Shown here one piece after another: positions 23,237 through 63,433 of a DNA stretch of 64,000 nt (positions are counted from its first letter, which is position 1; each line of letters starts with the position of its first letter). The notes under the pieces are model-generated. The model saw nothing but the letters and a program-made list of their open reading frames with translations, was not told the origin of the DNA and searched no databases. A program made the translations under genes and the position numbers. Source of the DNA: Saccharothrix sp. ALI-22-I (GTDB taxonomy: Bacteria > Actinomycetota > Actinomycetes > Mycobacteriales > Pseudonocardiaceae); assembly GCF_001984175.1 (NCBI RefSeq), contig NZ_MTQP01000069.1, forward strand, positions 248,001 through 312,000, written 5' to 3'.

Positions 23237-23252
23237 CCACGCCGGAGTCGAT

Positions 23253-23280: not shown

Positions 23281-23347
23281 CGTCCTCCGCTGCCCGTCCC
23301 CACGGCCTTGCGGGCTCGGGCGCATCCCCCGAACAGGAGTTGTGGCG

Positions 23348-24388: not shown

Positions 24389-24459
24389 TCCCCTCGCCCC
24401 CGCCTGCCGCTCAAACCCGACCGTCCACTTGACCGCCCACTTGACGAGGAGCCGTTCGC

Positions 24460-25580: not shown

Positions 25581-25594
25581 GATCGCCCGCGCGG

Positions 25595-25735
25595 CGGGTG
25601 CGGCGCATGCCGATCGCCCGCAGCAGCGCCAGTTCCCGGGTGCGCTGCGCGACGATGACGGAGAACGTGTTGAGGATGATGAAGATGCCGACGAACAGGG
25701 CGATGCCCGCGAAGCCGAGCAGCACGAAGGCCGAA
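25595..25735 (-). pseudogene. FtsX-like ABC transporter permease fragment
   Basis: About 45 codons on the minus strand read VLLGFAGIALFVGIFIILNT, then FSVIVAQRTRELALLRAIGM, the well-conserved helix and coupling segment of MacB/FtsX-type permeases. Both ends are cut. It is flanked by the dxs scar and an IS3 remnant. Confidence 0.7.
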
Positions 25736-25849
25736 CTCGTTGCCGCGGTTGACAGTTGGATCGAGTTCTACAACAGTGTGCGGCGGCACTCCGCGCTGGG
25801 GATGCTCAGTCCCGACGACTATGAGAAGTCACTCCGAGCGGCTGCCTGA
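25736..25849 (+). pseudogene. IS3-family transposase C-terminal remnant
   Basis: About 37 codons read VDSWIEFYNSVRRHSALGML and SPDDYEKSLRAAA, the end of the IS3 orfB integrase core containing the final conserved YN.RR.HS.L motif. The rest of the element is gone. Its left boundary fuses in frame to unrelated sequence. Confidence 0.75.
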
Positions 25850-27005: not shown

Positions 27006-28244
27006 CTACTCCCCCGCTCCCGCCGCGGCGGGAGCGGCGGGCTCGTGGCGGGACAGGCGGCGCAGCGTGGGGTTGGCGGTCGCGTAGACGGTGAGCAGGG
27101 CGGTGCCGGCCGCGCAGGCCAGGACGGCGTGGGTGGCGGGCAGCAGCTCCACCAGGAACCCGCCGACTGCGGGACCGGCGATCGCGGCGGTGCCGAGGGT
27201 CACGCCCATGACGCTGCTGAGCCTGCCCCGCAGTTCGTCGGGGGTGAGCAGGAGCTGGTAGGTGGTGATGGTGGTGTTGGCGGTGGGCGCGAGGAACGCC
27301 ATCGCGGCGAACAGGGCGCCGGTCTGGTAACCACCCTCGGCGATCGCCGCCAGCGGCATCAGGGCGGTGATCACCCAGAAGACGCCGACGATGGACGTGT
27401 GCGGGCGCAGCGCCCGGTGCAGGCGCGGCGCCACCAGCGCGCCGAGGATACCGCCCGCACCGAGCATGGCCGCCATGACGCCGATCTGCCCGGCCGGGAC
27501 GCCGCGCTGCTGCGCGACCGCGATGACCAGCAGGTAGAACGCCTGGAAGAACAGGTTGAGGCCGATCGCGCAGACCGCGACCACCCGCACCACCGGTTGC
27601 GCCCAGACCCACTTCAGGCCCTCCGCCACCTCGCGGCGGAAGTGGCGTGCGGGGGCGCGCTCCCTGGTGCGGGTGGGGATGCGGATGAACAGCAGCGCGA
27701 CGAACGTCGCCACGTGCGCCAGCGCCTCCACGGCGAACGGCAGCCATCGGCGCAGCCCGAACAGCAGGCCGCCCAGCGCGGTGCCGGCGAGCTGGCCGAG
27801 GTAGCCGCGGGCCGCGTTGAGTGCCACGGCCGTGGACAACTGGCTCTCCGGCACGAGGGCGGGCAGGGCGGCGTCCTCGGCGGGTTCGGACAGCGACCGG
27901 CACACCCCGAGGACGACGATCACGAGCACCACGAGGAGCACGCCGGCGCGGTCGAACCACAGGGCGGCGACGAGCCCGCTCACCGCGAGCGCCTGCACCG
28001 CCTCGCAGATCAGCATCACCCGCCGGCGGTCCCAGCGGTCCACCAGGGCGCCCGCCGGGAGCCCGGCGAGGAGTTGGGCGGCGGCGCCGGCGCCCAGCAC
28101 GAGGCCGGACGCCGCCGCCGAACCGGTCAACGCCAGCACCAGCAGCGGGAGCGCGATGGTGGACGCGCTCGAGCCGGCCTCGGACAGTGCCTGGCCGACC
28201 CACAGCAGCCGGTAGTCGCGGTTGCGCGACAGCGGGGCGGTCAC
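27006..28244 (-). CDS. MFS exporter of the peptide cluster
   Basis: A 412-residue major facilitator transporter with 12 predicted helices. The N-terminal half shows [20 protein letters not shown] and the loop motif [14 protein letters not shown] between helices 2 and 3; a long central basic loop precedes [13 protein letters not shown], as in the enterobactin-exporter/MFS_3 group. GTG 28244 overlaps the NRPS stop by 4 nt, so it is coupled to the last NRPS gene. The likely job is efflux of the finished peptide and self-protection. The tail [13 protein letters not shown] is low complexity. Confidence 0.9.
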
Positions 28245-31200
28245 CTCCCGCCCCGGCAGTCCGCGGCGATGCCGCGCAGCGCGTCGAGGAAGTCCTCCGC
28301 GACCCGGCGCACGGTGGCCTCGTCGTGCCGGTCCGGCTGGTGGTACCAGGTGAAGCGGAGTTCGCCGGCGGCGACGCCGCCCACCACCTCCAGTAGGTGC
28401 GGTCCGCGGTCGGTCGGGTCGCCGTCCTGCCCGATCGGGTCGTGCACCGCGCGGTAGAGCGAGTCGCCGGTCTGGTCGGTGGCGCTGTCGGACTGGCCCA
28501 GGTAGTTGAACACGATCTGCGGGCCGGGTCCGGACAGCCGCTCGCGCGCCTGCGGCGACCCCAGGTAGCGCAGCGCCCCGAAGCCGAGGCCGTTGCCGGG
28601 GATGGTGCGCAACTGCCGCCGCACCGCCTTGACCCGGTCGCGCCACCTCGGCTCGTCGGCATCGGGCACGGTGAGCGCGACCGGGTAGAGCGTGGTGAAC
28701 CAGCCGACCGTGCGGGACAGATCCGCGCCGAGGACGTCCTCGCGGCCGTGGCCCTCCATGTCCAGCGACACGGTGGAGCGCCCGGTGAACCGGGCCAGGG
28801 CATGCGCCAGGGCGGTGAGCAGGACGTCGTTGACCCTGGTCCGGTAGGCGGCCGGGGCCAGGTGCAGCAGCGCGTCGGTGTCCTCGGCGCCCAGGGCCAC
28901 GTGCACCGTGCCGGCCGGGGTGCCCGGCCGTGGCTGCTCGTGGTCGACCGGCAGCGGCTCCGCCCGCAGCGCGGCCTCCCAGTGCTCCAGTTCGTGGTCG
29001 AGGCCGCCTTCGGCGGTGTGCCGGCCCAGCCGCTGCGCCCACTCCCGGAACGACGTGGTCTTGGCACCCAGGTCGACCTCTTCGTCGCGGGCGGCCTGCC
29101 GGTAGGCGGTGTCGAGGTCGTCGAGCAGCACGCGCCACGACACGCCGTCCACGACGAGGTGGTGTACCGCGAGGAACAGCAGCGGCGGTGCGCCGTCGGC
29201 GTGGAACAGCACGGCCTTGAGCAGCGGCCCGCGGGCGAGGTCGAAGCCGGTGTGGGCCCGGTCCGCCACCTCGACCATGCGCGCCTCGCGGTCGTGCCCT
29301 TCGACGGCGGTGAGGTCGTGCCGGTCGAGGACGGTGACCGGTTCGACCGGGGCGTTGTGCTGGCGCCACCGCCCGTCGACCCGCTCGTAGCGCATCCGCA
29401 GCGCGTCGTGGTGGCTGAGCAGGGCGTCCAGTGCCCGCTCCAGGGCGCGTTCGTCCACCTCGGGGTCCAGTTCCAGCAGCATGGACTGGTTGAAGTGGTG
29501 CGGCGCGACCGTGCGGGTGTCGAAGAACCACTGCTGGATCGGGGTCAGCGGCACGTCGCCCACGACCTCGGCGGTGTCCGCCGGGGTGTCGGCGACCTCG
29601 GTGGCCACGGGGGCCAGCGCCTCGATGGTCTGGTAGCGGAACAGGTCCTTGGTCGTCAGGGCCAACCCCGCCTTGCGTGCTCGGGACACGACCTGGATGA
29701 CGAGGATCGAGTCACCGCCCAGCTCGAAGAAGTTGTCCCGCACCCCGACCCGGTCCGCGCCGAGCACGAACGCCCACACCTCGGCGAGCGCCGCCTCCAC
29801 CGGGGTGCGCGGGGCGACGTGGCGCCCCTCGTCGTCGGCGGAGGGTTCCGGCGCGGGCAGGGCGGCCCGGTCCAGCTTGCCGTTGGGCGTCACCGGCAGC
29901 GCGGGCAGCGCCACGAACGCCGAGGGCACCATGTAGGCGGGCAGGGTGCGGCCCAGGAACTCCCTCAGTTCCGCGGCCGCCGGTTCGGCGTCGGCGTGGA
30001 CCAGGTAGGCGACCAGGCGGTCGTGGCCCTGGCCGGTGTCCCTGGCCACGACCGCGGCCTCGGCCACACGGGGGTGCCCGAGCAGCGCGGCCTCGATCTC
30101 GCCGGGTTCGATGCGGTGACCGCGGATCTTGACCTGGTCGTCGATGCGGCCCAGGTACTCGACCGTGCCGTCCGCGCGGCGGCGGACCAGGTCACCCGAG
30201 CGGTACATCCGCTCCCCCGGCTCCCCGAACGGGCAGGCCACGAACCGGGAGGCGGTCAGGCCGGGCCGGTTGAGGTAGCCGCGGGCCAGCCCGGCACCGG
30301 CGATGCACAGCTCGCCGGGCACGCCGACGGGCACCGGTCGCAACAGGTCGTCGACGATGTAGAGCCGCGTGTTCCAGGCGGGGTGGCCGATGGGCACCGG
30401 GCCGGGTGCCAGCGGCGCGCCGGGTTCCACGCGGTGCTCCATGCAGCCGACGGTCGCCTCGGTGGGTCCGTACTCGTTGACCACGGCGGCGGTGGGGTTG
30501 GCCCGGCGCCACTCGTCGACCACCTCGCCGAGCAACTGCTCACCGCCGACGACCAGGTCCCCGGTCGGCGACAGCTCCGCCGGGACGGCGCCCAGCAGCG
30601 GCAGGTGGCTGGGCGTGGCCTTGAGGAACGTCGCCCGCTCGGTCGGCGTCGCGTCCTCGGCCAGTTCCTGGACCAGGACGCGCCCACCGACCAGCAGCGG
30701 GCCGAGCAGGGTGGTCACGGTGAGGTCGAACGACACCGGCGAGTGCAGGACCGCCGCACCGCGCAGGCCCGGATATACCTCGCCCGCCCAGGTCAGGTAG
30801 TTGACCACGGACCGGTGCTCGACCACGACGCCCTTGGGGCGGCCCGTCGACCCGGACGTGTAGATCACGTACGCCGCGTCGCGGGTGGTGAGCGGTCGGG
30901 TGCGGTCGTGATCGGTGAGGTCGTGGTCCGGGACGTCGGAGTCGGACTCGTCGCGCACCCGCGCGGGGTCGTCCAGCACCAGCACGGGGCGGGCGTCGTC
31001 GAGCACGAACGCGACCCGGTCGGCCGGGTGGTCCGGCTCGATCGGCACGTACGCGCCACCGGCCTTGAGCACGGCCAAGACCGCCACGACCAGCTCCACC
31101 GAGCGCGGCAGCGAGATCGCCACGTACCGGTCGGGGCCGACGCCCCGGTCGACCAGCCGCCGCGCCAACCGGTTGGCGCGGGCGTCGAGCTGCGCGTAGG

Positions 31201-32635
31201 TGAGCGCCACGCCGTCGCCGACCAGCGCGACCGCGTCGGGCGTGCGGTCCACCTGCGCCCGGAACAGCTCGGGGAGCGTGGCGTCGGGGACGGCGTGCGC
31301 GGTGTCGTTGCCGACCTCCAGGGCCTGCCGCCGCTCGTCGTCGGCCATCAGCGGCAGCTCGGCCAGCGGGCGGTCCGGGTCGGCGACGGCGGCCTCCAGC
31401 AGCACGGCCAGGTTGCCGGTCAGCCGTTCGACGGTGGCGGCGTCGAACAGGTCGGTGCTGTAGCTGACGGCGCCGTACAGGGCGTCGTCGGCCTCCTGGA
31501 ATTCGACGGTGAGGTCGAAGTTCGCCGCGACCACCGGCAGCCCGAGGTCCTCCACGTGCAGGCCGGGCAGGTCGGACGCCGGCTCGGGGTTGTTCTGCAG
31601 GACCACCATGACCTGGAACAGCGGCGTGCGGCTGGTGTCCCGCTCGGGCCGCACCTCGTCGACGATGCGCTCGAACGGCACGTCCTGGTGGGCGAACGCG
31701 TCCAGCGCGGTGCCGCGCACCTGCCCCAGGAACTCGCGGAAGGTACTCGAACCGTCCACTGAGGACCGGAGCACCAGCGTGTTGACGAAGAACCCGATCA
31801 GCCCTTCCAACTCGGTGCGCTCACGCCCGGAGGCGACGGTGCCCACGGCGATGTCGTCCTGCCGGGACCAGCGGGCGAACAGCGCCTGGCACGCGGCGAC
31901 CAGCGCCATGAACAGGGTGCCGTCCTGCTGCCGGGCCAGTGCCTTGAGCCGGTCGGCGACCCCGGCGGGCACGGTGAAGGCGTGCACCGCGCCGCGGGTG
32001 CCGCGGACCGCGGGCCGGTGCCGGTCGGTGGGCAGCTCCAGCGGCGGCACGCCCGCCAGCCGCTCACGCCAGTGGCCGAGTTGCCGTTCCAGCTCGGGCC
32101 CGGCCAGCCGCTCGCGCTGCCACACCGCGTAGTCCGCGTACTGCACCGGGAGTTCGGGCAGCTCGGCGTCCACGCCGGACAGCTCCGCCCGGTAGAGGGC
32201 GCCCAGCTCCGAGGTGAGCACCCCGGCGGACCAGCCGTCGGTGACGATGTGGTGCATCACCAGCAGCAGCACGTGGTCGTCGTCGACCAGGCGCAGCAGC
32301 ACCGGGCGCAGCAGCGGGCCGCGGGCCAGGTCCAGCGGGCGCGTGGTCTCCGCCGCCAGCGCCCCGCCCAGTCCGGCCTCGCCGCCGGGCACCTCCACCA
32401 CGGGCAGGTCCACCGGGTGCGGCGGGTGCACGACCTGCACGCCGCGGCCGTCGACGGTGTCGAACGTGGTGCGCAGCGACTCGTGCCGGGCGACCAGCGC
32501 GGTCAGCGCCCCGGCGAGCGCGTCGACGTCCAGCTCGCCACGCAGCCGGAGGATCGACGGCGAGAGGTAGTCCGCGCCGCCGGGTTCGAACTGGTCGAGG
32601 AACCACAGCCGCTGCTGTGCGAACGACAGCGGCAG
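28241..32635 (-). other. NRPS module 9: C(LCL)-A(Asn)-T-E, no TE
   Basis: The specificity residues read from FDLTVTT (Asp at 5778), FLKATPS, LVVGGE and [11 protein letters not shown] give DLTKVGEVGK, close to the Asn code (DLTKLGEVGK). The carrier Ser is 6117. The E domain has [10 protein letters not shown] at 6299 and EGHGRE, so D-Asn is expected at the C-terminus. The chain must be released by a separate enzyme. Confidence 0.8.
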
Positions 32636-35600
32636 CGCCCCGTCGCGCGGGGCGCGTGGGATGACCTCGTCCGCCCCGGTCTCGGCGGCCAGCGCCTCGA
32701 CCAGCCTGGCCGGGGTGGGCGCGGTGAACAGCACCCGCGGCGACACCGGCACGTCCAGCTCGGCGCGCAGCCGGGATACGACCCGGATGCTGAGGATGGA
32801 GTCGCCGCCCAGCTCGAAGAAATTGTCGTCCAGCCCGACGCGGGGCACGCGGAGCACGTCGGCCCAGGCTCGGCAGACCCGTTCCTCGACGGGCGTGCGC
32901 GGGGCCCGGTACGCCGTGCCCGCGTCGGCGAGCACGTCCGGCGCGGGCAGCGCGCGGCGGTCGACCTTGCCGTTGGGCGTCATCGGCACCGCGTCGAGCC
33001 CCACGAACGCCGTCGGGACCATGTGGTCGGGCAGGCGCTCGGCCAGCCACGACCGCAGTTCCGCCGGGCTCGGGCCGGCCGGGACGACGTAGGCCACGAG
33101 GCGCTTGTGGTCCCCGTCCTCCCGGGCGACCACGACCGCGTCGCGCACGTCCGGGTGCCGGGTCAGGGCGGCCTCGACCTCGCCGGGTTCGATGCGGAAA
33201 CCGCGGATCTTGACCTGCTCGTCGGTGCGGCCCAGGTACTCGATGCGACCGTCCGCGTGCCACCGCGCCCGGTCGCCGGTGCGGTACATGCGCTCGCCCG
33301 GCACGCCGAACGGGTCGTCCAGGAACCGCTCGGCGGTCAGTCCGGGGCGGTTGAGGTAGCCGCGCGCCAGTTGCGCGCCCGCCAGGTACAGCTCGCCCGG
33401 CACACCGACCGGTACCGGCCGGAAGTCCTCGTCCAGCACGTAGGCCCGCACGTTGCGCAGCGGACGGCCCACCACCACGGGCGAGCCCGGCGCGATGCGG
33501 CACGACAGGGCGTCCACAGTGGACTCGGTGGGACCGTAGAAGTTGTAGCTCGCCGTGCCCGGCGCCTCCGCCAGCCGCCGCCACAGCGACTCCCCGATCG
33601 CCTCACCACCGAGCATCAGCACCCTCGGCCGGTGCTCACGGTCCAACAGACCCACCGCCAACAACTGCTGCGCGTACGACGGCGTCAGGTCGAGGAAGTC
33701 GATGCGCCGCTCCACGACGTAGTCCACCAGCGCCGGCGGGTCCAGGCGCAGGTCCTCGTCCAGCACGTGCAGCTCGTGGCCGTCGGCCATGAGCACGAAG
33801 CCCTCCAGCGACGTGTCGAAGGAGAACACCGCCGACAGTGCCACGCGCAACCGCCCGCCACCGGCGTCGGCCACGAAACCCTCGCGGTGGTTGACCACCA
33901 GGTTGACCAGGCTGCGGTGCTCCACCACCACACCCTTCGGCTTGCCCGTCGACCCCGACGTGTAGATCACATACGCCGCATGCTCCGGGCACAGCGGCGA
34001 CAGCCGGTCCACGTCGGTCAGGTCGGAGAGGTCGGTGACGGCGGTGACCTCCGGCGAGCCGAGCAGCGATTCGGTGATCACGAGCACCGGGTTCGCGTCG
34101 GTGGTCAGGAACTCCACGCGGTCGGCGGGCAGGTCCGGGTCGATCGGCAGGTAGACACCGCCGGCCTTCCACACCGCCAACAGCGCCACCACGAACTCCA
34201 CCGAGCGCCGCAGCGACAACCCGACCACGCGCTCGGGGCCGACACCGACCGACACCAGGTAGCGCCCGACGCGGTTGGCGCGTGCGTTCAGCTCGGCGAA
34301 GGTCAACGACCGGTCGCCGACCACCAAGGCGGTCGCGTCCGGCGTCGCCCGCACCCGCGCCTCGAACACGTCGGTGAACGTCACCACCGGCACGTCGCCG
34401 GCCGTGTCGTTCCACTCGACGACGACCTGCCGACGCTCCTCCTCGGTCATCAGCGGCAGTTCCGCCACTGGCCGGTCGGGGTCGATCGCGATGCCCTCCA
34501 GCAGCACCATCAGGCGGGCGGCGAGGCGTTCGGCGGTCGCGGGGTCGAACAGGCGGGGGTCGTAGTCCAGCTCCAAGCGCAGCCGGTCGCCGAGGTTGGC
34601 GCTGAGGGCGAGCGGAAAGCTGGTGGTGTCGGCGCCCTCGACCTCCAGGACGCGGACCTGCTGCTCGGCGTCGACGAGCTCGTCGACGGGGTAGTTCTCG
34701 AACACCACGGCGCTGTCGAACAGGTTCGCACCCGCCGGCACGTCGCTCCACGACCTCAGATCGGCCAGCGACACGAAGTCGAACCGGCGGGACTCGATCT
34801 GCTCGGCCTGGAGTTCCCGCAGCCACGGCAGCACGCCCCGGCTCGCGTCGACCCGGACCCTGGTCGGCACGGTGTTGATGAACAGGCCGACCATCGACTC
34901 CACACCCGGCAACTCCGCCGGACGACCCGACACCGTCGTACCGAACACCACATCCGACTCACCGCTGTAACGCGACAACAACAACGCCCACGCACCCTGC
35001 ACCACCGTGTTCACCGTCAACCCGGCGGTGCGGGCGACCCGGTCCAGGGTCGCCGACCGCTCCGGGGTCAGCTCGGCCCCGGCCGAGGCGCTGGACGCGG
35101 CGCGGTGCGCCTCGACGGGCGGCCGGTCCCAGGGCAGCGGGGTGGGCGACTCGACGCCGGCGAGTACCTGCCGCCAGTGCCGCTCGGCCGCCGCGGTGTC
35201 CTGCTCGCCGAGCCACCGCAGGTAGTCGCGGAACGGGCGGCGCGGGGTCAACCGCGGCGCCCGTCCGTCGGCGAGGGCGGCGTACTGCTCGCACACCTCG
35301 GCCAGCACTTGGGCGAGGCTCCATCCGTCCATCAGGACGTGATGGGCGGTCCAGAACAGGGTGACCTCGTCGTCGGTCAGCCGCGCCACGGCCAAGCGCA
35401 GCAGCGGCGGCCGGGTCAGGTCCAGCCCGTCGGCGTCCTCGGCGATCACCCGGTCGTGCGCGGCGTCCTTCTCCTGCTCGGAGAGGTGGCGCCAGTCGTG
35501 GTGGACGACCGGCACCTCGACGCGGCGGTGCACGACCTGGAGCGGCTCCTCCACGCCCTCCCACACGACGGTGCTGCGCAGCACGGTGGTGCGGTCCACG

Positions 35601-38600
35601 ACGCGGCGGCACGCCTCGGCCAGCACGTGCGGGTCGGTGACGCCGGCCAGCCGCAGCCGGAACCGGTTGAAATAGGCGTCGGAGGTGTCGTCCACGAGCG
35701 TGTGGAACACCATGCCCGCCTGCAACGGGGTCAGCGGGTACAGGTCCTCGACCGACCGGCCGTCGCCGACCAGGCGGTCGACCGAGGCCTGGTCCAGCCG
35801 GGCCAGCGGGAAGTCCGACGGCGTGCGACCACCGGCACCGGGCCGCGCGCAGTGCTCCACGATCTCCCGCAGCGCGGTCATCGTCGCCTCGGCCACCGAG
35901 AGCACGGTCGACTCGTCGTGCACGTTGTCGGAGTAGAACCACGACAGGACCAGCTCACCGTCCTCGACGCCGCCGACGACGTCGAGCAGGAACGCCCGCG
36001 GGCTGCCGGCGGGCGCCTCGTCGCCGGGGGTGTCCCGCCGGGCCCGATACAGGCCCTTCCCCTCGGCCGACGCCACGTCCCACTGGCCGTGGTAGTTGAA
36101 GCTGACCGGCGGCAGCGGGGCGCCACCGAGCACCGCCGCGCCGACCTGGCCGAGCTGCCGCAGCGCTTCGTAGCCGAAGCCGCGGCGCGGCACGGCCCGC
36201 ACCTGCTCCTTGACCGACTTGAGCACCGCGTCCCAGCCACCGTCGGGCACGGTGAGCGCGAGCGGGTACTGGGTGGTGAACCAGCCGACCGTGCGGGAGG
36301 TGTCCACGCCGTCGAGCACGTCCTCGCGGCCGTGGCCCTCCATGGTGACCGCCACCCGGTCCAGGCCCGTCCAGTCCGCCAGCGCCCGGCCCAGCGCGCT
36401 GAGCAGCACGTCGTTGGCCTGCGTGCGGTAGGCGTCGGGCACCCGGTGCAGCAGGGCGTCGGTGTGGTCTCGGTCGAGCCGGACCGACACGACGCGGGTG
36501 GACCCGGCGGTGTTGGGGCCGTCGCGGTCCACCGGCACGGCACCGGGCTCACCGTCGAGCACGGCGCTCCAGTGGGCCAGCTCGTCGTCGAACGCGCCGG
36601 AACGCACGTGCTCGGCCAGCCGGTGCGCCCACTGGGTGAAGCGGGTGCCGACCGGTGCGAGGTCCACCTCCTCGCCGGCGGCGACTCGGCGGTAGGCCGT
36701 CTCCAGGTCGCCGAGCAGGACGCGCCACGACACGCCGTCCACCACGAGGTGGTGCACGGTGAGGAACAGACTCGGCCGGTCCCCGCCGGTGAACAGCAGG
36801 GCGTGCAGCAGCGGGCCCTGGGCGATGTCCAGGCCGGTCCGGGCCGCCTCGACGACAGCGGCCACGGCCTCGGCGCGGGAACTCTCGTCCAGGCCGGACA
36901 GGTCGTGGTACTTCAGGTGCCCGCCGAGGCCGATCGGCGCGGGCTCCTGACGCCACTCGCCGTCCACCCGGGTGAACCGGGTGCGCAGCGCCTCGTGGTG
37001 GGCGACGACCGCGTCCACGGCACGCGACAGCGCCGCCGGGTCCACGTCCTCCTCCAGCTCCAGGTGGAACGACATGGTGAAGCGGTGCGGGTCCGGCGCC
37101 GAGTCGAGGAACCAGCGCTGGATCGGGGTCAGCGGCGCGGGTCCGGCGATGTCGGGCCGCTCGGCGGTCCGCTCGGCGGTCCGCTCGGCGCGGGTGCGCA
37201 CGACGGTGGCCAGCTCGGCGACGGTCTGGTGGGTGAAGACGTCCTTGGTGACCAGCTCCAGGCCCGCCTGACGGGCCCGGGAGACGAGCTGGATGCTCAG
37301 GATCGAGTCGCCGCCGAGGCCAAAGAAGTTGTCGTGCACGCCGACGCGCTCGACGCGCAGCACCTCGGCCCACACGCGGGCCAGCTCCTGCTCGACGGGC
37401 GTGCGGGGTGGCACGTAGCCCTCCTGCACGCCGCCGCGCGCGTCGGGCGCGGGCAGGGCGCGGCGGTCGACCTTGCCGCTGTCGGTCTTGGGCAACCCGT
37501 CCAGCACGACGAACAGCGACGGCACCATGTAGTCGGGCAGGTCCCGCTTGAGCCAGGCCCGCAGGTCGTCGGCGGTGGGCGCGGTCGCGCCGGCGGGTAC
37601 CGCGTAGCCGACCAGCCTCAGGTGGCCGGGGTCGTCCTCCCGCGCGACCACGACCGCCTCGGCCACGTCGGGGTGACCGGTCAGGGCGGCTTCGATCTCG
37701 CCGGGCTCGATGCGGTAGCCGCGGACCTTGACCTGGTCGTCCGCGCGGCCCTGGTACTCCAGCACGCCGTCCGCGGTCCAGCGGACCACGTCGCCGGTGC
37801 GGTACATGCGGCTGCCGGGCGCGCCGAACGGGTCGGCGACGAACCGCTCGGCGGTCAGGCCGGGCCGGTTCAGGTAGCCGCGTGCCACCTGGTCGCCCGC
37901 CAGGTACAGCTCGCCGGGCACGCCGACCGGGACGGGCCGGAAGTCCTCGTCCAGCACGTAGGCTCGCAGGTTGCGGCCGGGCGCGCCGATCACCGGGCGG
38001 TCGCGGTCGGTGATCGTGCTCCACACCGAGTCGACGGTGCACTCGGTGGGGCCGTAGAGGTTGACGCCGATGACGCCGTCGGCGTCGGCCAGCGCCCGCC
38101 ACAGCGGCTCGCCCACGGCCTCGCCGCCCAGGGCCACCAGCCGCGGCCGGTGGTCCGGGTGGGTCAGCACGCCCTCGGGCAGCAACTGGCGGAAGTAGGA
38201 CGGGGTGCAGCTCAGGAAGTCGATCCGGTTCCGGACCAGGTGCTCGGCCATCGCCCGCGGGTCGAGCCGCACCGCGTCGTCCACCAGGTGCAGCTCGTGG
38301 CCGGCGGCGAGCAGGAGCAGGCCCTCCCACGAGGCGTCGAAGGAGAACACGGCGGTGGCGATGCCGCGCAGCCGCGTCCCGTCGCCGGGCAACAGGCGAG
38401 CGTGGTGGTCGGCGACCAGGTTGGCGAGGTTGCGGTGCTCGACCACGACGCCCTTGGGCCTGCCGGTGGACCCGGACGTGTAGATCACGTACGCGGGGTG
38501 CTCCGGCCGCAACGGGGCGGCGCGGTCGTCGTCGGTCGGGTCGGTGGCGGGCAGGGCGTCGACGGCGGCGCGCGTGGCGGGGTCGTCGAGCACCACGCGG

Positions 38601-48058: not shown

Positions 48059-48072
48059 GGCGTGGTCTCTCC

Positions 48073-51000: not shown

Positions 51001-51230
51001 GACCTGGAGGGGGCGGTCCACGCCCTCCCACACGACGCGGCTGCGCAGGACCGGCGTCCGCTCCACGACCTCGCGCCAGGCGCGGGCCAGCACGGCGGTG
51101 TCGGTGACGCCGTCCAGGACGAACGCGATCTGCTCGGTGTAAAGACCTTCCTCCGCCTGCGAGAGGCTGTGGAAGACCATGCCGGCCTGCATCGGCGTGA
51201 GCGGGTAGACGTCCTCCACGCCGCGCCCGT
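48073..51230 (-). other. NRPS module 4: C(DCL)-A(Val)-T
   Basis: The code from FDASTYE (Asp at 4242), LWLTAG, VWTGGD and [10 protein letters not shown] is DAYWWGGTFK, a Val code common in actinobacteria. The C domain (HHVLLDGW at 3736) follows an E domain. The carrier reads ALGGDSMRS with Ser 4589. There is no E domain, so L-Val passes to the second synthetase. Confidence 0.8.
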
Positions 51231-54200
51231 CGCCGACCAGCCGGTCCACACCGGCCTGGTCCAACCCGGCCAACGGGAAGTCCGACGGCGTACGACCACC
51301 GACACCAGGCTGGGCGCAGTGCGCCACGATCCCGCGCAGCGCCCGCGCCATGCGCTCGGCCAGCCCGCGCACGGTCGACTCGACGTGCACCCGTTCGCTG
51401 AAGTACCAGGTCAGCTTGAGCCGCTTGTCCTCGACAGCGCCGACCACGTCGAGCAGGTGCGGCCGGGGCGTGTCGGGGGCGCCGTCGGCACCCAGCCCGC
51501 CGACGGCGCGCACCGCCGTCCCGCCCGCCGCGGCGGCGAACTGCCCGAGGTAGTTGAACGCCACCGCGGGGTGCCCGGTCGTACCGCCGCCGCGCAGGTG
51601 GCGCAGCGCGCCGTGGCCGATGCCCTTGCGCGGCACCGCCCGCAGCCGTTCCTTCGTGGACTTGAGCACGCGTCCCCAGTCGTCCGTCGCCGGGACCTCC
51701 AGCGCCACCGGGAACACCGAGGTGAACCAGCCGACCGTGCGGGACAGGTCCACGCCGTCGAGGAAGTCGCCGTCGCGGCCGTGGCCCTCCAGGTCCACCA
51801 CCACCCGGTCCCGGCCCGTCCACTCCGCCAGGACCCGACCCAGCGCACTCAGCAGCACGTCGTTGACCTGCGTGCGGTACACGCCCGGCACGTCCTGCAA
51901 CAACGCCCGCGTCGTCTCCGCGTCCAGTTCGACGGTGACACCCCGCACCGTGCCGGTGGTGTTGGCCCCGTCGAGGTCGACCGGCACGTCGCGGTCGCCG
52001 GCCGTGACGGCCCAGTGGTCGGCCTCGTCGTCGAACCCACCGTTCGCGGTGTGCTCGGCCAGCCGGTGCGCCCAGTCCCGGAACGACGTGGTCTTCGCCC
52101 CGAGGTCGACCGGTTCGCCGCGCAGCGCCTGCCGGTAGGCGGTGTCGAGGTCCTCCAGCAGCACGCGCCAGGAGACGCCGTCCACGACCAGGTGGTGCAC
52201 GGCGAGCAGCAGTCGCCGGTCGCCGGCCCCGTCGTCGAGCAGCGCCGCGCGCAGCAGCGGCCCGTTGCCCAGGTCGAAGCCGCGGTGCACCTGCGCCACG
52301 ACCGCCCGCCGCCGCTCCTCGTCGGCCACGTCGTGCACCGACAGCACGTCCACCGGCTCGATCCGGGCGTTGTACTGCCGCCACCCGCCGTCGGTGCGCT
52401 CGAACCGCATCCGCAGCGCGTCGTGGTGGACCAGCAGCCCTTCCAGCGCCCGCCGCAGCGCCGCCACGTCCACGTCGTCGGTGAACTCCAGCAGCATCGA
52501 CTGGTCGAAGTGCTCGGGCCGGGGCGGTTCGGTGTCGAGGAACCAGTGCTGGATCGGGGTCAGCGGCGTCTCGCCGGTCACCGGGCCCTGCGGCACCGCC
52601 TCGACCGCGTCGGCGGCGGACGCGGCGGCGGCCAGCGCGGCGACCGTGGGGTGCGTGAACAGGTCGCGCGGCACCAGGGCGAACCCCGCCTGCCGGGCGC
52701 GCGAGACGATCTGGATGCTGATGATCGAGTCGCCGCCCAGCTCGAAGAAGCCGTCCTCGACGCCGACGCGATCGACCCCGAGCACCTGCGCCCAGATCTC
52801 CGCGAGCACCCGCTCGGCCTCGGTGCGCGGCGCGACGTACCCGGAACCGGAGGCATCCCACTCGGGCGCGGGCAGCGCCTTGCGGTCCAGCTTGCCGTTG
52901 CCGGTCAGCGGGAGGCGGTCCAGGGCGACGAACGCCGAGGGCACCATGTGCTCGGGCAGGGAGCGGGCCAGGAAGCCGCGCAGTCCCCCGGCGGCGGGCG
53001 CGGTGCGGCCCGCAGCGGGCACGACGTAGCCGACGATCAACTTGCGCCCGGCGTGCTCGCGGACCGCGGCGACCGACTCGGCCACGTCGTCGTGCGCCTC
53101 CAAGGCCGCCTCGATCTCCCCCAGCTCGATGCGGAAGCCGCGGATCTTGACCTGGTGGTCGGCCCGGCCCAGGTAGTCCAGCCGACCGTCCCGCCAGCGC
53201 GCCAAGTCGCCGGTGCGGTACATGCGCGTGCCGGGTTCACCGAACGGGTCGGCGACGAACCGGGAGGCGGTCAGCCCCGGCCGGTTGAGGTAACCGCGCG
53301 CCAGGCCCGCCCCGGCGACGTACATCTCGCCGGTGACGCCCGGCGGCACCGGCCGCAGGTCGTCGTCGAGGACGTACACGCGCAGGTCGGGGATGGGCTC
53401 GCCGACCGTGCCGTCGGCGGGTGTCCACGTGACGTGCACGGTGGTCTCGGTGATGCCGTACATGTTGATCAGCTCGCCCGGACCGTCCCAGGCGGCCAGC
53501 TTGCGCACGTCCAGCGCCTCGCCGCCGAACACGACCCACCTCAGGCTCAGCCCCGTTGGCTTCTCGGCGATGAGCTGGTAGAACGCGGAGGGCGTCTGGT
53601 TGAGCACGGTGACCCGCTCGTCGGCCAGCAGCCTGGCGAAGTCGCGCGGGGAACGCGAGACCTCGTGCGGCACCACGACCAGCCGCCCGCCGTGCAGCAG
53701 CGGCCCCCACAGCTCCCAGACGGAGAAGTCGAAGGCGTAGCTGTGGAACAGCGTCCACACGTCCTCGGGGCCGAACCCGAACCAGCGGTCGGTGGCCGAG
53801 AACAGCCGCGCCACGTTGGAGTGCGGGATCACCACGCCCTTGGGCTTGCCGGTGGAGCCGGAGGTGTAGATGACGTAGGCCGGGTGCCCGGGCCGCAGAT
53901 CCACCGCGGGCGCGGTCGCGGGCACGCCGGACAGGTCCGGCAGCTCGGTCAGCGTGAGCACCGGCCGGGTGTCCTCGACCATGCCCGCCACCCGGTCGGC
54001 CGGGTAGGACGGGTCGATCGGCAGGTACGCCGCGCCGGACTTGAGCACACCCAGGACGGCCACCACCAGGTCGATCGAGCGGGGCAGCCGCAGCGCGACG
54101 TACCGCTCGGGCGCGCCGCCGTGCCCGGCCAGGACGTGTGCCAATCGGTTGGCGCGGTCGTCCAGCTCGGCGTAGGTCAGACTGCGGCCCTCGCAGGTGA

Positions 54201-57200
54201 CGGCGACGGCGTCGGGGGTGCGGGCGACCTGCTCGGCGAACAGCCGGGGCAGCGTGGCCACCGGGTAGTCGCGGCCGGTGGGGTTCCACTCCACCAGCAC
54301 CTGCCGCCGCTCGGCGTCGTCGAGCATCCGCAGGTCGCGCAGCAGCCGGTCCGGGTCGGCCAGCACCTCCTCCAGCAGTGCCCGCAGGTGCCGGCCCAGC
54401 CGCTCGACCGTGGTCGCGTCGAACAGCGCCGGGTCGTGGTCCAGCTCGACGACCAGTTGCGGACCCGGTGAGACGACGACGGTGAGGGCGTAGTTGGTCG
54501 GCTCGTCGGCGCGCACGTCGTGCAACCGCAGGCCGTGCGCGGCCATGGCGTCCTCGTCGAACGGGTAGTTCTCGAAGACCAGGATGCTGTCGAACAGGTT
54601 CGAGCCGCCGGGCAGATCGCTCCAAGCGCGCAGCTTCGACAGCGGCACGTGCTCGAAGCGCCGCGCCTCGGCTTGGTCGGTTTGGAGTTCGCGCAGCCAC
54701 GACAGCTGGTCGCGGTCCCGGTCGACGGCGATCCTGGTCGGCACGGTGTTGATGAACATGCCGACCATCTGCTCGACGCCCGCCAGGTCGGCGGGCCGAC
54801 CGGAGACGGTGGTGCCGAACACGACGTCGGAGGTGCCGCTGTAGCGGGCCAGCAGCAGGGCCCACGCGCCCTGCACGACGGTGTTCACGGTGAGGCCGTT
54901 GCGCTGCGCGGCGGTGCGCAGCCGCTCGGTCTGCTGGGCGGTCAGGTCGAAGCGGACGGTCCCGCCGGACGCGGCGCGGTGGGCCTCGACCGGGCGCCGG
55001 TCGTAGGGCAGCGGGGTCGGCTCGTCGAACCCGCCGAGCACCCGGCGCCAGTACCGCTCGGCTGTCGTGCCGTCCTGCAGGGCCAGCCAGTCCACGTAGT
55101 CGCGGAAGGGGCGCCGGGCGGTCGCGGGGCCCGAGCCGCCGCGGGTGATCGCCGCGTGGTGCTCGCAGACCTCGGTGAACAGCTGCGCCGCGGTCCAGCC
55201 GTCGAGCAGCACGTGGTGGAAGGTCCACACGACCTGGACCTCGTCGTGCGACAGCGCCGCGATCGCCACGCGCATCAGCGGCGCCGTGCCCAGGTCCAGA
55301 CCGGCGGCGCGGTCCCGCTCCAGGAACCGGCGCAGCTCCTCCTCGCGGCCGGCGTCGTCCAGGCCGGTCCAGTCGAGGTGCGCGACCGGGAGGGTGACGT
55401 GGTGGCGCACGAGCTGGAGCGGTTCGGGCAGACTCTCCCACGCGATCTCGCAGCGCAGCACCGGGTTGCGGTCCACGACCCGCTGCCACGCCTCGCCCAG
55501 CACCCGCGGGTCGGTCACCCCGGACAGGCGGAAGTGCACCTGGTTGAAGTAGGCGCCGGAGGTGTCCCGGTCGACCAGGCCGTGGAAGACCATGCCGGCC
55601 TGCATGGGGGTCAGCGGGTAGACGTCCTCGACGTCGCGGCCGTCGCCGACCAGCCGGTCCACACCGGCCTGGTCCAGCCCGGCCAGCGGGAAGTCCGACG
55701 GCGTGCGACCACCGGCACCGGGCCGCGCGCAGTGCGCCACGATGTCCCGCAGCGCCTCCGCCATGCGCTCGGCCAGGGCCCGCACGGTCGCCTCGTCGTG
55801 CACCCGGTCGCTGAAGTACCAGGTCAGTTCGAGGTTGCCGCGTTCGACCACGCCGACGACGTCGAGCAGGTGCGGGCGGGGCGCCTCCGGTGCGCCGTGC
55901 AGCTCCAGGCTGCCGCGCACGGCGTGCACCAGCCCGCCCTCGACCGCGGACCAGTCGAGCCTGCCCAGGTAGTTGAAGCTGATCCACGGACCGTCGACGC
56001 CGGGCTCGTGCAGCGCGCCGTGGCCGATGCCCTTGCGCGGCACCGCCCGCAACTGCTCCTTGACCGACTTGAGCACTGTTCCCCAGTCCCCGCTCTCCGG
56101 GACCTCCAGCGCGACCGGGAAGATCGAGGTGAACCAGCCGACCGTGCGGGACAGGTCCACGCCGTCGAGCAGGTCCTCGCGGCCGTGCCCCTCCAGGTCC
56201 ACCACGACCCGGTCGCGCCCGGTCCAGTCGACCAGCACCCGGCCCAGCGCGCTGAGCAGCACGTCGTTGACCTGCGTGCGGTACACACCCGGCACGTCCT
56301 GCAACAACGCCCGCGTGGTCCCGGCGTCCAGCCGGACGGCTACGGTGCGGGTGGAGCCCGCGGTGCCGATCCCGTCGTGGTCGACGGGCAGGGACGGGTC
56401 CACCGCGGCGGTCTCCGCCCAGTGGTCGCGCTCGTCGTCGAACCCGCCGTTCGCGGTGTGCTCGACCAGCCGGTGCGCCCACTCCTTGAACGAGGTGGTC
56501 TTCGCGCCCAGCCGGACGGGCTCGCCGCGGGCCGCCTGGTCGTAGGCGGAGGCCAGGTCCTCCAACAGGACGCGCCACGACACGCCGTCCACGACGAGGT
56601 GGTGGGCGGCGAGGAACAGCAGCGGGCGGTGTCCGTCCGCGCGAAACAGCGCGGCCTTCACCAGCGGCCCGCTCGCCAGGTCGATGTCCGCGTGCGCCCG
56701 CGTGGTGACGGCCCGGACGCGTTCCTCGTCGGCCGGGGACACCTCGTGGACGTCGAGGACGTCGCCCCGCTCGACCGGGGCGTTGTGCTGCCGCCACCCG
56801 CCGTCGTCGGTGCGCTCGAACCGCATCCGCAGCGCGTCGTGGTGCTCCAGCAGCGCCTCCAGCGCCCGCCGCAGCGCCGCCACGTCCACGTCGTCGGTCA
56901 GCTCCGCGGTCAGCGACTGGGCGAAGTGGCCGGGGTGGTCGGGGTTGGTGGCGAACAGCCACCGCTGCACCGGGGCGAGCGGCACGTCGCCGACCACCTG
57001 GCCCTGGTCCGCGGTCGTCTGCTCGGCGTCCACCTGCTCGGACACGGCCGCGGCCAGGGCGGCCACCGTGGGGTGCCGGAACAGGTCGCCGGGGGTGAGC
57101 GCGAGCCCGGCGCGGCGGGCGCGCGACACGACCTGGATGCTGAGGATGGAGTCGCCGCCCAGCTCGAAGAAGTTGTCGTGGGCGCCGACGCGGTCCACAC

Positions 57201-60200
57201 CCAGCAGCCCGGCCCAGATGTCCGCCAGCACGGCCTGCGGCCCTTCGGCGGGCGCGACGTGGGCGGTGCCGGCGGTCCTCCAGTCCGGTTCGGGCAGGGC
57301 GCGGCGATCCACCTTGCCGTTGGCGTTGAGCGGGAGCGCGTCCACGACCACGAACGCGGAGGGCACCAGGTAGTCGGGCAGCGCGCGGCCCAGGAACTCG
57401 CGCAACCCGGTCGCGTCCGGCCGGTCGCCGATGGCTGTCAGGTAGGCGACCAGGCGCTTGCGGCCGGTGTCGTCCACGCGCACGACGGTCACCGACTGCG
57501 CGACGGCGGGGTGCCCGGACAGCGCCGTGTCGACCTCGCCCGGTTCGACGCGGAAGCCGCGGATCTTGACCTGGTCGTCGGTGCGCCCGACGAACTCGAC
57601 GGTGCCGTCGGACCTCCAGCGCACGACGTCGCCGGTGCGGTACATCCGCTCCCCCGGCGCGCCGAACGGATCGGGCACGAAGCGCTCGGCGGTCAGGCCG
57701 GGACGGCCCAGGTAGCCGCGGGCCAGGCCCGCGCCCGTGATGAACAGCTCGCCCGGCACGCCGATCGGCGCCGGCGACAGCCCTTCGTCCAGCACGTAGA
57801 CGCGCATGTCGTCCAGCGGGCGACCGATGGGCACCACGTCCGGGACGTCGGCGGCGTCGGCCATGCGGTGCGCGGTGGCGAACGTGGTGGTCTCGGTGGG
57901 GCCGTAGCCGTCGACCACCGCGATGCCTGGACAGGCGCCCAGGACCCGGCGCGCGGCGGCCGCGGGCACCACGTCGCCACCGGTCCACACCTCGCGCAGC
58001 CCCGCCAGGCAGGCCGGATCGTCCTGTGCCACGGCGCGGAACAGTCCGGCGGTCAGCCACAGGCCGGTCAGGCCGTGCCGGGTGACCAGGTCGCGCAGCA
58101 GGTCCGCGTCGAGGTCGCCGGGCGGGGCGACGACGACGCTGCCGCCGTTGAGCAGCGGCACCCACAACTCGTAGGTGGTGGCGTCGAACGCGGGCGCCGA
58201 GTGCAGCAGGACCCGTGCGTGCGCGCCGCCGAGGAAGCGCGAGTCGCGGGCCAGGGCGGTCACGTCGCGGTGCCGCACCGCCACACCCTTGGGCACACCG
58301 GTCGAGCCCGAGGTGTACATGGCGTAGGCCAGGTTGTCCGGGTGCAGCGGCACGTCCGGGGCGGTGGCGGGCTCGGCCGACAGGTCCGCGTCGTCCAGGA
58401 CGACGACGTGACCGTCGTGGACGGACGCGACGGTGTCCCGCCACGCCCGGTCGATCAGCACGATCCCGGCCCGCGTCTCGGCCAGCAGCACCGCCAGCCG
58501 CTCGGCGGGTGACCTGGTGTCCAGCGGCACGTAGGTCCCTCCGGCCTTGACCACGGCCAGCTCGGCCACGACGAGGTCGACCGACCGGCCCAGCAGCAGC
58601 GCCACCGGGTCCTCGACGCGCAGGCCGCGGCGCAGCAGGTGGCGGGCGAGCCGGTTGGCCCGCGCGTCCAGCTCGGCGTAGGTGAGCGAGGCGCCGTCGG
58701 CGAGCACGGCGGTGGCGTCGGGCGTACGACGGGCCTGCGCGGTGAACAGGGAGGTGATCGTCGCCGGGGACAGGTCACGGCGGGTGTCGTTCCACTCCTC
58801 CAGGACCCGGTGGCGTTCCGCGGGGTCGAGCAGCGGCAGATCGCCCAGCGGGCGGTCCGGGTCGGCGGCGACGGCGTCCAGCAGGACCTTGAGGTGACCG
58901 GCCAGCCGCTCGACCGTGGCGGCGTCGAACAGGTCGGTGTTGTACTCCAGCGCCACGTCCAGCGCATCGCCCCTGGGCCAGAACTCGACCAGCAGCTCGA
59001 ACCGGGCGCGCGGGCGCGGCAGGTGGTGCTCCTCGACGCGCAGCGCGTCGACCGCGGTCGGCTCCACCATCGCCTGCTGGAGCACGACCAGCGCCTGCAC
59101 CAGCGGCGTGCGGCTGGGGTCGCGGTCGGGCTGCAGCTCGTCGACGAGCCGGTCGAAGGGCACCTGGTCGTGGGCGAACGCGTCCAGCGAGATCGCGCGC
59201 ACCCGGCCCAGGAAGTCCCGGAACGGCGTGGCGGGATCCGCGGTGGAGCGCAGGACGAGTGTGTTGACGAAGAAGCCGACGAGGTCGTCGAGCTCCGGCC
59301 TGCCGCGGCCGGAGGAGGCGGTGCCCACGGCGATGTCGCGCCGACCGGTGTAGCGGGCCAGGAGCACCTGCACGGCGGCGGCGAGGGTGGTGAAGAGGGT
59401 GGCGCCGTCGGCGCGGCCCAGTTCGGCCAGGCGCCGCACCAGCTCGGCGGGCAGGGCCTCCCGGTGCACGGCGCCGGAGGTGGTCCGCTGCGCGGGCCGG
59501 GGCCGGTCGGTGGGCAGGTCGAGCGGTTCCAGGCCGGCGAGCCGGTCGCGCCAGTGGTCGAGTTCGCCGGCCACGGCCGGGTCGTCGAGGCGGTTGCGCT
59601 GCCACACGGCGAAGTCGGCGTAGCGCACCGGCAGTGGGCGCAGGTCGGGTGCGGTTCTTCGGAGCGCGGCCCGGTACAGCTCGACCAGGTCGTCGACCTG
59701 CACGCGGACCGACCAGCCGTCCGTGGCGATGTGGTGCTGGTCGAGCAGCAGCACGTGCTCGTCGTCGGCCAGGCGGGCCAGCACGGCGCGGGCCAGGGGG
59801 CCGCGGCCCAGGTCGAACGGGGTGGTCAACTCCTCGGTGAAGACCCGGTCCAGGGCGCTGTCGCGGTCGGCGTGCGCCACCCCGGTCAGGTTGACCACGC
59901 GCAGCGGCACCGTCCCGTGCGGCGCGACGACCTGCACACCCCGGCCGTCGACCTCGTCGAAGGTGGTGCGCATGGTCTCGTGCCGCTCGACCAGGCCGTC
60001 CAGGGCGGCCCGCAGTGCGTCCTCGTCGAGCGGGCCGGACAGCTTCAGGCCGACGCCGGTGTTGTAGTCGGTGGCGGTGGGGTCGAGCCGCTGCAGGAAC
60101 CACAACCGCTGCTGGGCCGGGGACAGCGGCAGCGTGGCGTCGCGCGGCGCGGGCGCGATGCGGTCGTCCGCGCCGGCGGGCTGCCGCTCGGCCACCAGCG

Positions 60201-62013
60201 CGGCGAGCCCGGCGACGGTGCGGGCGTTGAACACGTCCCCGGAGGACAGGGGCACGTCGAGCGCCGAGCGGAGCCGGGAGACCACCCGGATGGCCTGGAT
60301 CGAGTCGCCGCCCAGGCCCAGGAAGTCGTCCTCGACGCCGACCCGGTCCGGTGCCACACCCAGGACCTCGGCCCAGGCGACTGCGACGGCGGTCTCGGTG
60401 GGGGTGCGGGGCGCCACGCGCCCGGCACGCGGGGCGGCCTGCCAGTCGGGCTCGGGCAGGGCCTTGCGGTCGACCTTGCCGTTGGCGCTCAGCGGCAGGC
60501 GGTCCGCGGTGACGAAAGCCGACGGCACCATGTAGTCGGGCAACGTCCGCAGGACCAGTTCCCGCAGCTCACCGTCGGCGGGGGCCCGGTCGCCCTCCGG
60601 GACGACCCAGGCCACCAGGCGCTTGGTCCCCACGTGGTCGTACCGGGCGGCGACGGCGGCCTGCGCGACGCCGGGGTGCCGGGCCAGGGCGGCTTCGACT
60701 TCGCCGGCCTCGATGCGGAAGCCGCGCACCTTGACCTGCTCGTCGACGCGGCCGACGAAGTCCAGTTCCCCCTGCGGGTTCCACCGGACCAGGTCGCCGG
60801 TGCGGTACATGCGGGAGCCGGGCGGGCCGAACGGGTCGGCCACGAACCGGGCGGCGGTCAGCGCGGGACGGCCGAGGTAGCAGCGGGCCACGCCGGCGCC
60901 CGCGAGGTGCAGCTCGCCGGGCACGCCGACCGGGACGGGCCGCAGGTCCTCGTCGAGCACGTAGGCGGCCATGCCGTCCAGCGGGCGGCCGATCGGCAGC
61001 ACGTCCGGGACGGCACCGGAGTCGGTCATCGGATGGGAGGTGGCGAACGTAGTGGTCTCGGTCGGGCCGTACACGTCCACCGCGGTCAGGCCGGGACACA
61101 CCTCCAGGACCCGCCGCACCGCCGCCGCCGGCACCACGTCACCACCGGTCCACACCTCGCGCAACCCCGCGAAACAGGCCGGGTCGTCCTGTGCCAACAC
61201 CCGGAACAGGCCCGAGGTCAGGAACACCCCCGTCACGCCGTGCCGGCCGATCACCTCCCGCAACACCCGACCGTCCACATCGCCAGCCGGGGCCACGACC
61301 ACGCGGCCACCGTTGAGCAACGGCACCCACATCTCGTAAGTGGTCGCGTCGAACGCCTGCGCGGAGTGCAACAACACACGCTCGTGCGCGCCGTTGCGGA
61401 ACCGGGAGTCCAAGGCCAGCGCCACCACGTCCCGGTGCCGCACCGCCACACCCTTGGGCGTGCCCGTCGACCCCGAGGTGAACATGGCGTAGGCCAGGTT
61501 GTCCGGATGCACCGCCACGGGGATCGCGGCTCCCGGTTCGGCGGCCGGGTCCCCGTCGTCGATCACGACGAGGTGGCCGTCGTGGATGCGTTCGGCGGTG
61601 GCCTGCCAAGCGCGGTCGGTCACCAGCACCGACACCCCGGCCTCGGTCAGGACCGTGTTCATCCGACCGACCGGCGCGCGGGTGTCCAGCGGCACGTACG
61701 CGCCGCCGGCCCTGAGCACGGCGAGCAGGGCGGCCACCAGGTCCGCGGAGCGGTCCGCCAGCACGCCGACGCACTGCTCGGGCCGCACCCCCAGGTGCAG
61801 CAGGCGGCGCGCCAGGCGGCCGGCGCGGGCGTCCAGCTCGGCGTACGCGCACTCCACGCCCTGCGCGACCACGGCGACGCCGTCGGGGGTCCTGCGCACC
61901 TGCTCGGCGAACAGGTCGACGATCGTGGGGACCGCGGCGGGCGGAGCTCCGCCTTCACGGGAACGAGGGCCGGCGGTCGACGGTGTGACAGGGGCGGTTT
62001 CCGGGGGCGTCAT
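48073..62013 (-). CDS. Four-module non-ribosomal peptide synthetase (modules 1-4), starter
   Basis: A 4646-residue synthetase. Domain order: A-T, C-A-T-E, C-A-T-E, C-A-T. It starts directly with an adenylation domain after about 30 residues, so there is no lipo-initiation C domain or formylation domain. The carrier serines are at 571, 1622, 3096 and 4589. C-domain HHxxxDG motifs start at 760, 2266 and 3736; E-domain [10 protein letters not shown] motifs at 1804 and 3273, each with EGHGR. The C-terminus [20 protein letters not shown] is a charged helix that probably docks with the next synthetase. ATG 62013 has AGAGG about 11 nt upstream. The stop lies 15 nt before the ATG of the second synthetase. 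No MbtH-like gene is seen in the window. Confidence 0.97.
51230..55650 (-). other. NRPS module 3: C(DCL)-A(Thr)-T-E
   Basis: The code from FDFSVWE (Asp at 2762), LNQTPS, VVFGGE and [10 protein letters not shown] is DFWNVGMVHK, the Thr signature with one conservative change. The E domain ([10 protein letters not shown] at 3273) should give D-allo-Thr. Confidence 0.85.
55650..60140 (-). other. NRPS module 2: C(LCL)-A(Val)-T-E
   Basis: The code, with Asp at 1277, is DAYWWGGTFK, Val. The C domain has HHIATDG at 760. The carrier Ser is 1622 and the E domain motif is at 1804, so D-Val is expected. Confidence 0.8.
60140..62013 (-). other. NRPS module 1: A(aliphatic)-T loading module
   Basis: The code, with Asp at 222, is DAYFWGVTFK, the same as module 5. 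The carrier is LGGDSIQAI with Ser 571. With no C, E or formylation domain, the first residue should be L with a free amine, available for macrocyclization. Confidence 0.8.
61052..61170 (-). repeat. 119-bp identical tract in A domain of module 1
   Basis: Partner of 45711-45829, 15.3 kb apart and in a different gene. Confidence 0.85.
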
Positions 62014-62104
62014 CGCTGTCCAAACCTCTTTTGGGCGCGGCAGGGCGCCGCAGGAGCACGGGTGGGGTGGGGGATGGGTGCCGCGCCGGGCGGCGGTCCT
62101 GCGG

Positions 62105-63433
62105 TCAGGCCACTTCTCGCGCGCGCTGCCGGCGGCTCGCGATCCGACCGCCGACCTGGATGCGATCGATCACGCCGCTGCGCGGGTCACGGAGGAAGCG
62201 TCCGGGGTGACCGGTCTCGCCGCTGGCCGGGTCCGTCACGGAGAAGACGAGCCCGTCGTGGGAGGTGAGCCGCGCCGCCGTGTCCCCGTCGACGACGAGG
62301 CGCAGCTCGCCGTCCTGGACGACCACCGAGTAGGCGGTGCCGCCGTTGACGTAGTCGCCGGCGCAGCCGGGCGGGATGGGCACCCGGCGGCCCAGGTCGA
62401 CCGAGGTGGCGTGCTCGCCGACGTCGAGACCGGCCGTCCGCAGATCGGGGAGGAGCTGCCGCCACAGGGCAGCACCGGTGGCGGAGTTGGCCGTGAGCGC
62501 CACCACGGTGCCCGATTCGGGGTCGAGGCGCAGGTGGCAGGAGGTGCCGTCGGCCGTACCGTCGTGGCCGAACCACTCGGTGTCGCCGCTGCGGAACAGC
62601 GCCAAGCCCAACCCCCAGCCGTCGGCCAGCCCGAACGGCTCGGCTCCGGGAACGGGGCGGCGCATCTCGACGAGGTCGGCCGGGGCCACCAGGCCGTGGT
62701 CGGTCCCGCCGTGCTCGGAGCGCAGGTGCATCCGGGACAGCTCGACCAGGTCGGCCGCGCTCGCGGCGAGCCCACCCGCCGGCGCCTCGATCGGCGACAA
62801 CTCCTGCTCCACGGGGCGGACCCGGCGCAGGACGCGGTTCACGGTGTGGCCGTGCGCGATGGACGACGCCGCGGCACCGGCGCCCACGATGAAGGCCGGG
62901 GCGATGCCCAGCGGCTTCAGCAGGATCGTCCGGACCGCCTCCGACCACGTCATCCCGGTCGCCACCTCGACCAGGCGGCCCGCCAGGGCGTAGCCGGCGT
63001 TGGAGTACGAGAAGCCCTCCCCCGGCGCGTGCAGAAGTTCCAGGAGGGACGCCGCCAGAGGCGGTCGGGCGTCGGCGGACGGCGCGACGACCTCCGAGCA
63101 CAGCCCCCCGGTGTGGCTGAGCAGGTGGCGGGTGGTCAGCACCTCGGCGAGCCCGCCACCGGTCTGTCGCACCTCCGGCAGGTACTCCGCGACGGGTTCG
63201 TCGAGGTCGACGTCGCCGTCGGACACCAGCACCATCAGCAGGGTCGCCGTGAAGGCCTTCGTGATGGAGCCGATCGGCACCTTGGTGTCGCGCCCCATTG
63301 CACGCCCGGAGGCGTGTCGTTCCTCACCGAACACGAACTCCCACACCCTGCCGTCGCGCAGCACGGCCAACTGCGCGCCTGGGACGTCGTGCACGCGCAC
63401 CGCTCTCTGAAAAGCTCGTCCTAAGTCTTCCAC
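62105..63433 (-). CDS. Beta-lactamase-fold serine hydrolase, probable PBP-type thioesterase/cyclase
   Basis: A 442-residue penicillin-binding-protein-like enzyme with no signal peptide or membrane helix, so cytoplasmic. The catalytic motifs are SITK (Ser56, Lys59), YSN (Tyr143, Asn145) and HDG (His290). A C-terminal lipocalin-like beta domain follows at about 330-442. In NRPS clusters that lack a TE and end in an E domain, stand-alone PBP-type TEs of the SurE group release the peptide head-to-tail; this gene is 91 nt upstream of the first NRPS on the same strand. GTG 63433 follows GAGG and AGAGAG. Codon 4 is TTA (63422-63424), rare in this genome type, so translation may depend on bldA tRNA. 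A resistance esterase or peptidase is the alternative. Confidence 0.85.

Follow-up and report, generated by a model that had tools for sequence, protein, structure and literature searches.

In a 64,000-nucleotide stretch of the Saccharothrix sp. ALI-22-I genome (hereafter the window; contig NZ_MTQP01000069.1, positions 248,001 to 312,000), four genes, all on the minus strand, form an operon that we judge, with a probability of about 0.83, to make and export a cationic head-to-tail cyclic nonapeptide. The genes encode a stand-alone thioesterase (TE) of the penicillin-binding protein (PBP) type, the putative cyclase; two nonribosomal peptide synthetases, NRPS1 and NRPS2; and an exporter of the major facilitator superfamily (MFS) (Table 1). 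A preliminary description of this DNA had placed a serine hydrolase immediately upstream of the assembly line on the same strand, and indeed the gene ends 91 bp before NRPS1. NRPS1 and NRPS2 overlap by 4 bp. The exporter, as the fourth member of the operon, is an addition to that description. The operon contains no tailoring gene.

The two synthetases together carry nine adenylation (A), eight condensation (C) and five epimerization (E) domains. The Pfam Condensation model matches 13 times in the two frames, corresponding to 8 C and 5 E domains, and only about 30 residues lie ahead of the first A domain. The domain calls thus uphold the description of nine modules that begin with a bare A-thiolation (A-T) pair and end in C-A-T-E with no release domain. 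Core motifs are kept in all five E domains, including RTVGWFT and FNY(L/H)G. The C domains that follow E-less modules (C2, C5, C7 and C9) start with PLS(P/F)xQQRLW, and those that follow E modules (C3, C4 and C8) with PLTP(M/L)QAGMV; the C6 motif was missed by the script pattern and taken from the translation. The C1 motifs of the L- and D-accepting types sit at matching places. We take the two starts to be the LCL and DCL types and, from these and the positions of the E domains, predict the stereochemical order L-D-D-L-D-L-D-L-D. An L residue with a free amine in first place and a D residue in last place had been anticipated, and the domains support this: module 1 is a bare A-T without E, and module 9 has an E domain. 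PBP-type TEs need an L-first, D-last order (PMC11735501).

Residue identities were predicted by hand reading of the pockets from motifs and an alignment, using the GrsA pocket positions. The code of A1 and A5 is DAYFWGVTFK, that of A2 and A4 is DAYWWGGTFK, and that of A3 is DFWNVGMVHK. A9 reads DLTKVGEVGK, presumably an Asn code. A6 and A8 read DTEDMGFVDK by hand and DTLDMGFVDK by MAFFT; A7 reads DAESAGLVDK by hand or, alternatively, DAWSAGLVDK. The pockets of A6, A7 and A8 all carry acidic residues. In an excerpt of PMC9113097, the A1/A5 and A2/A4 codes are listed as Val and the A3 code as Thr, some rows being themselves predictions. The available part of PMC3207962 labels a near code of A9, DLTKVGHI, as Asp, so Asp is a possible residue 9. 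It also labels the bacitracin code DAESIGSV as Lys, which the hand-read A7 code DAESAGLV matches at 6/8 positions; for DGEDHGTV, which has 5/8 positions in common with A6/A8, the best match is Lys and a second predictor disagreed. Literature labels were found for the Val and Thr codes and for none of the basic ones. A6 and A7, used as queries against the PDB, returned general A-domain matches with no useful specificity label, and a labelled Lys module, sought via SurE in 392 Streptomyces genomes (E <= 1e-120, best 4 candidates per genome), was not found. Residues 6-8 are probably basic and Lys-like, and the predicted chain is L-Val, D-Val, D-Thr, L-Val, D-Val, L-basic, D-basic, L-basic, D-Asn.

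Closer inspection of the 442-residue hydrolase located the SITK, YSN and HDG motifs that had been ascribed to it, as S56-I-T-K59, Y143-S-N145 and H290-D-G. S56, K59 and H290 align without gaps to SurE, the catalytic residues being known here from sequence. Gly235 of SurE, aligned with G220, is a pocket residue for acceptance of the D residue (PMC11735501). The alignment to SurE spans residues 1-435 of a two-domain fold, and in the best AlphaFold2 model (mean predicted local distance difference test score, pLDDT, 78.8; the other four, 50.3-66.9) eight strands at residues 359-434 fit a C-terminal lipocalin-like domain. By eye, with no predictor run, no signal-peptide-like start was seen. Identity to the window protein is 42% for SurE (425 aligned positions) and 47% for Ulm16, part of which is missing from the alignment used; SurE and Ulm16 are 42% identical to each other. 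Among the best 60 of 133 structure-sequence matches, SurE (281.8 bits) and Ulm16 (255.8 bits) stand well above the next (108.1 bits).

In a tree of 39 rows, which includes no class C beta-lactamase and from which two loci (L017 and L006) are absent, the window protein falls within a 17-row clade (support 100/99), and SurE, Ulm16 and one further locus (L022) are grouped (98/99). With two long-branch joins flagged and the deep forks open, the branching order by itself does not settle the family of the hydrolase. In bit score, sequence identity, fold and genomic setting, the comparison with SurE and Ulm16 that had been suggested as a check is favourable; in the deep part of the tree it is open. 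By those four measures, a grouping of the hydrolase with SurE and Ulm16, and not with esterases or beta-lactamases, is supported.

The arrangement recurs in relatives and is therefore not due to chance. We compared seven of them, drawn from Umezawaea, Lentzea and Saccharothrix: Umezawaea endophytica, Lentzea pudingi, L. jiangxiensis and the genomes G226, G154, G062 and G134. In 7/7, the cyclase (60-74% identity) and the exporter flank two NRPSs, the G062 cyclase lying only partly inside the fetched stretch (69% identity). Searches with 15 window proteins (cyclase, exporter and 13 neighbours) found a match for only one neighbour, in 2/7 relatives; this gene is weakly Usp-like and lies just past the right end region of the window. 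The predicted residue order is that of the window in six of the seven, A1 and A5 showing Val-type variants. G154 (L037-L040) has the same four-gene operon with the order X-Val-Val-X-Thr-basic-Asn-basic-Val (X, a Val/Ile-like code), which suggests module reshuffling with the cyclase kept. Left out of the comparison were G215, in which only NRPS2 is readable and agrees at its five codes, and G076, which runs off its contig and has a Val-type A3, not Thr. In G226 (L030-L032), the terminal E core motif is HHLVVDA in place of HHLVVDG. With the cyclase as query, 15 of 18 loci (42-74% identity) directly precede an NRPS starting with a bare A domain, the contig of one (L020) ending after one A motif; the remaining three (31-35%) have no NRPS alongside. 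A cyclase match at E <= 1e-80 occurs in 79/249 genomes of the family sample and in 14/17 same-genus genomes listed. Saccharothrix hoggarensis supplies the nearest protein in the database (90%).

We propose that module 1, a bare A-T, would load free L-Val, so that the chain keeps a free amine. Eight extensions would give the nonapeptide, and the terminal E domain would flip its last residue to D. Ser56 of the hydrolase could then accept the peptidyl chain from its thioester on the last carrier protein, with the D residue seated in the Gly220 pocket; attack by the N-terminal amine would release the ring. The MFS protein would export it, by analogy with other SurE-type clusters for which MFS export is proposed in the accessible text of PMC13285481. 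That the enzyme would mostly hydrolyse the chain and release a linear nonapeptide is the alternative that survives best, and it is improbable. PBP-type TEs can hydrolyse: PenA acting on a tetrapeptide gave cyclised to hydrolysed product at 1:2.7, and surugamide F is a linear analogue of a SurE product (PMC11735501). However, both the bare A-T at the start and the D residue at the end are in keeping with cyclisation.

It is more doubtful still that the hydrolase serves in self-resistance or immunity, as a D-peptidase or beta-lactamase-like protein, and that another enzyme releases the peptide. Its PF00144 fold is also found in class C beta-lactamases and D-peptidases, and the genome has other thioesterases: PF00975 matches 16 times, with two of the matches on this contig, one at 39355 and one, scoring below the cut-off, at 107092, and trans-acting type II TEs may be encoded elsewhere. 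However, the NCBIfam class C beta-lactamase equivalog NF033085 scores 74.5 bits, well below its cut-off of 415, and class C structures match only residues 1-337 of the protein. A beta-lactamase or resistance enzyme was rejected on score, coverage and gene context. A thioesterase gene for this line outside the window was named in the preliminary description as evidence that would count against a PBP-type cyclase; on this contig there is no PF00975 match within ~169 kb of the NRPS genes. Within the window, a hot-dog thioesterase (15987-16403) was rejected as the releaser, having no match at 1e-20 in the regions of the seven relatives (36-63 kb each), and a PETase-like gene has no counterpart there.

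Least likely, by a small step, is that the window cyclase works for another NRPS line, either in addition to this one or in its place: SurE and PenA each act on two lines (PMC11735501), and the genome has 75 Condensation matches and three PBP-type TE/NRPS pairs, but a PBP-type TE of its own sits next to every one of the three lines, and the pair in the window is co-inherited in 7/7 relatives. The two further pairs lie at C64:607097-635031 (54% identity to the window cyclase) and C55:103233-127106 (46%). On visual inspection, both lines end in an E-type domain, the C55 motif being degenerate (HHLAVDT). Many of the listed same-genus genomes have a relative of the C64 cyclase.

Table 1. Features of the four-gene operon, numbered by position in the window.
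Feature	Coordinates	Strand	Remarks
MFS exporter, 412 aa	27006-28244	-	Overlaps NRPS2 stop by 4 bp; 74-81% identity to counterpart in 7 relatives
NRPS2, 6611 aa, modules 5-9	28241-48076	-	C-A-T-E, C-A-T, C-A-T-E, C-A-T, C-A-T-E
Terminal epimerization domain, module 9	28253-29560	-	No release domain after; last of 13 Condensation matches
Epimerization domain, module 7	35822-37141	-	
Epimerization domain, module 5	43484-44815	-	
NRPS1, 4646 aa, modules 1-4	48073-62013	-	A-T, C-A-T-E, C-A-T-E, C-A-T
Epimerization domain, module 3	51307-52575	-	
Epimerization domain, module 2	55714-56991	-	
Stand-alone PBP-type thioesterase (SurE family), 442 aa	62105-63433	-	GTG start
G289-H290-D-G	62558-62569	-	H290 aligned with SurE His305; H290 invariant in 20 sequences
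G220, equivalent of SurE Gly235	62774-62776	-	By alignment; invariant in 20 sequences
Y143-S-N145	62999-63007	-	Y143 invariant, N145 nearly invariant in 20 sequences
S56-I-T-K59	63257-63268	-	Aligned with SurE Ser63/Lys66; S56 and K59 invariant in 20 sequences

Fragments of an integrase and an IS110 transposase flank the operon on both sides (25577-25849, plus strand, and L007:3587-4099). Nine MbtH genes are present in the genome, none of them within the 64-kb window. Beyond the operon, tandem genes at 20365-21801 and 21527-23236 (plus strand) encode encapsulins with a type 2A, SrpI-like shell domain plus a cyclic nucleotide (cNMP)-binding domain. They are followed by polyprenyl synthetase and IspH (LytB) genes (23342-24388 and 24460-25386), and the genes at 20365-25386 look like an encapsulin operon with terpenoid cargo. 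The PETase-like alpha/beta hydrolase lies at 19067-19945 (plus strand; PF12740, 408.8 bits), and a tandem pair of DUF4360 proteins is encoded at 7072-7767 and 7798-8418 (minus strand).

PBP-type TEs serve in making cyclic peptides, and the release strategy proposed here is already known. SurE, from surugamide synthesis (PDB 6ksu), is likewise a stand-alone two-domain PBP-type TE, with aligned Ser/Lys/His and pocket Gly residues and a substrate that is L first and D last; the window has a single nine-module line with a predicted D-Asn end, whereas SurE serves two lines and cyclises an octapeptide and a decapeptide (PMC11735501). The native substrate of Ulm16, from ulleungmycin synthesis (PDB 8fek), is a hexapeptide and not, as predicted here, a nonapeptide. 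The PenA/CppA systems (pentaminomycin and BE-18257), likened here by their description in the available sections of PMC7827011, also pair TE-less NRPSs ending in E with a stand-alone PBP-type TE, but they make pentapeptides, with two NRPSs per TE and P450 tailoring genes, and the window operon has no tailoring gene. Biffamycin A synthesis, as given in the accessible portion of PMC13285481, shares release of the SurE type and a cluster-encoded MFS exporter; there, however, the SurE domain of BifB is fused to the NRPS, and the product is a glycosylated tetrapeptide with C-terminal Gly.

Among the matches listed in the open-licence PMC literature, no paper on the window cluster was found. We give about even odds to a conserved, unreported family, in Saccharothrix, Umezawaea and Lentzea, of head-to-tail cyclic nonapeptides that are cationic, untailored and for the most part D,L-alternating, closed between D-Asn and L-Val by a PBP-type TE, with module order permuted in the G154 branch and cyclase and exporter kept. 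Because the operon has no conserved tailoring gene beside it and only a few product masses are expected, the prediction lends itself unusually well to testing. For the cyclic form, the calculated [M+H]+ is 996.6564 with three Lys, 1080.6749 with three Arg and 954.6095 with three Orn, mixed chains lying in between; the linear acid would be heavier by 18.0106, and Asp in place of Asn would add 0.984. Relative to the native examples reviewed, the predicted ring size is new: in the papers reviewed, native PBP-type TE rings have 4, 5, 6, 8 or 10 residues (the FlkO product not counted), and the nonapeptides described are substrates that were engineered or are not native. The native rings reviewed lack that size, which is why a native nonapeptide ring would be useful; if the prediction is true, a cationic nonapeptide substrate ending in D-Asn would widen both the known size range and the known C-terminal range of these enzymes.

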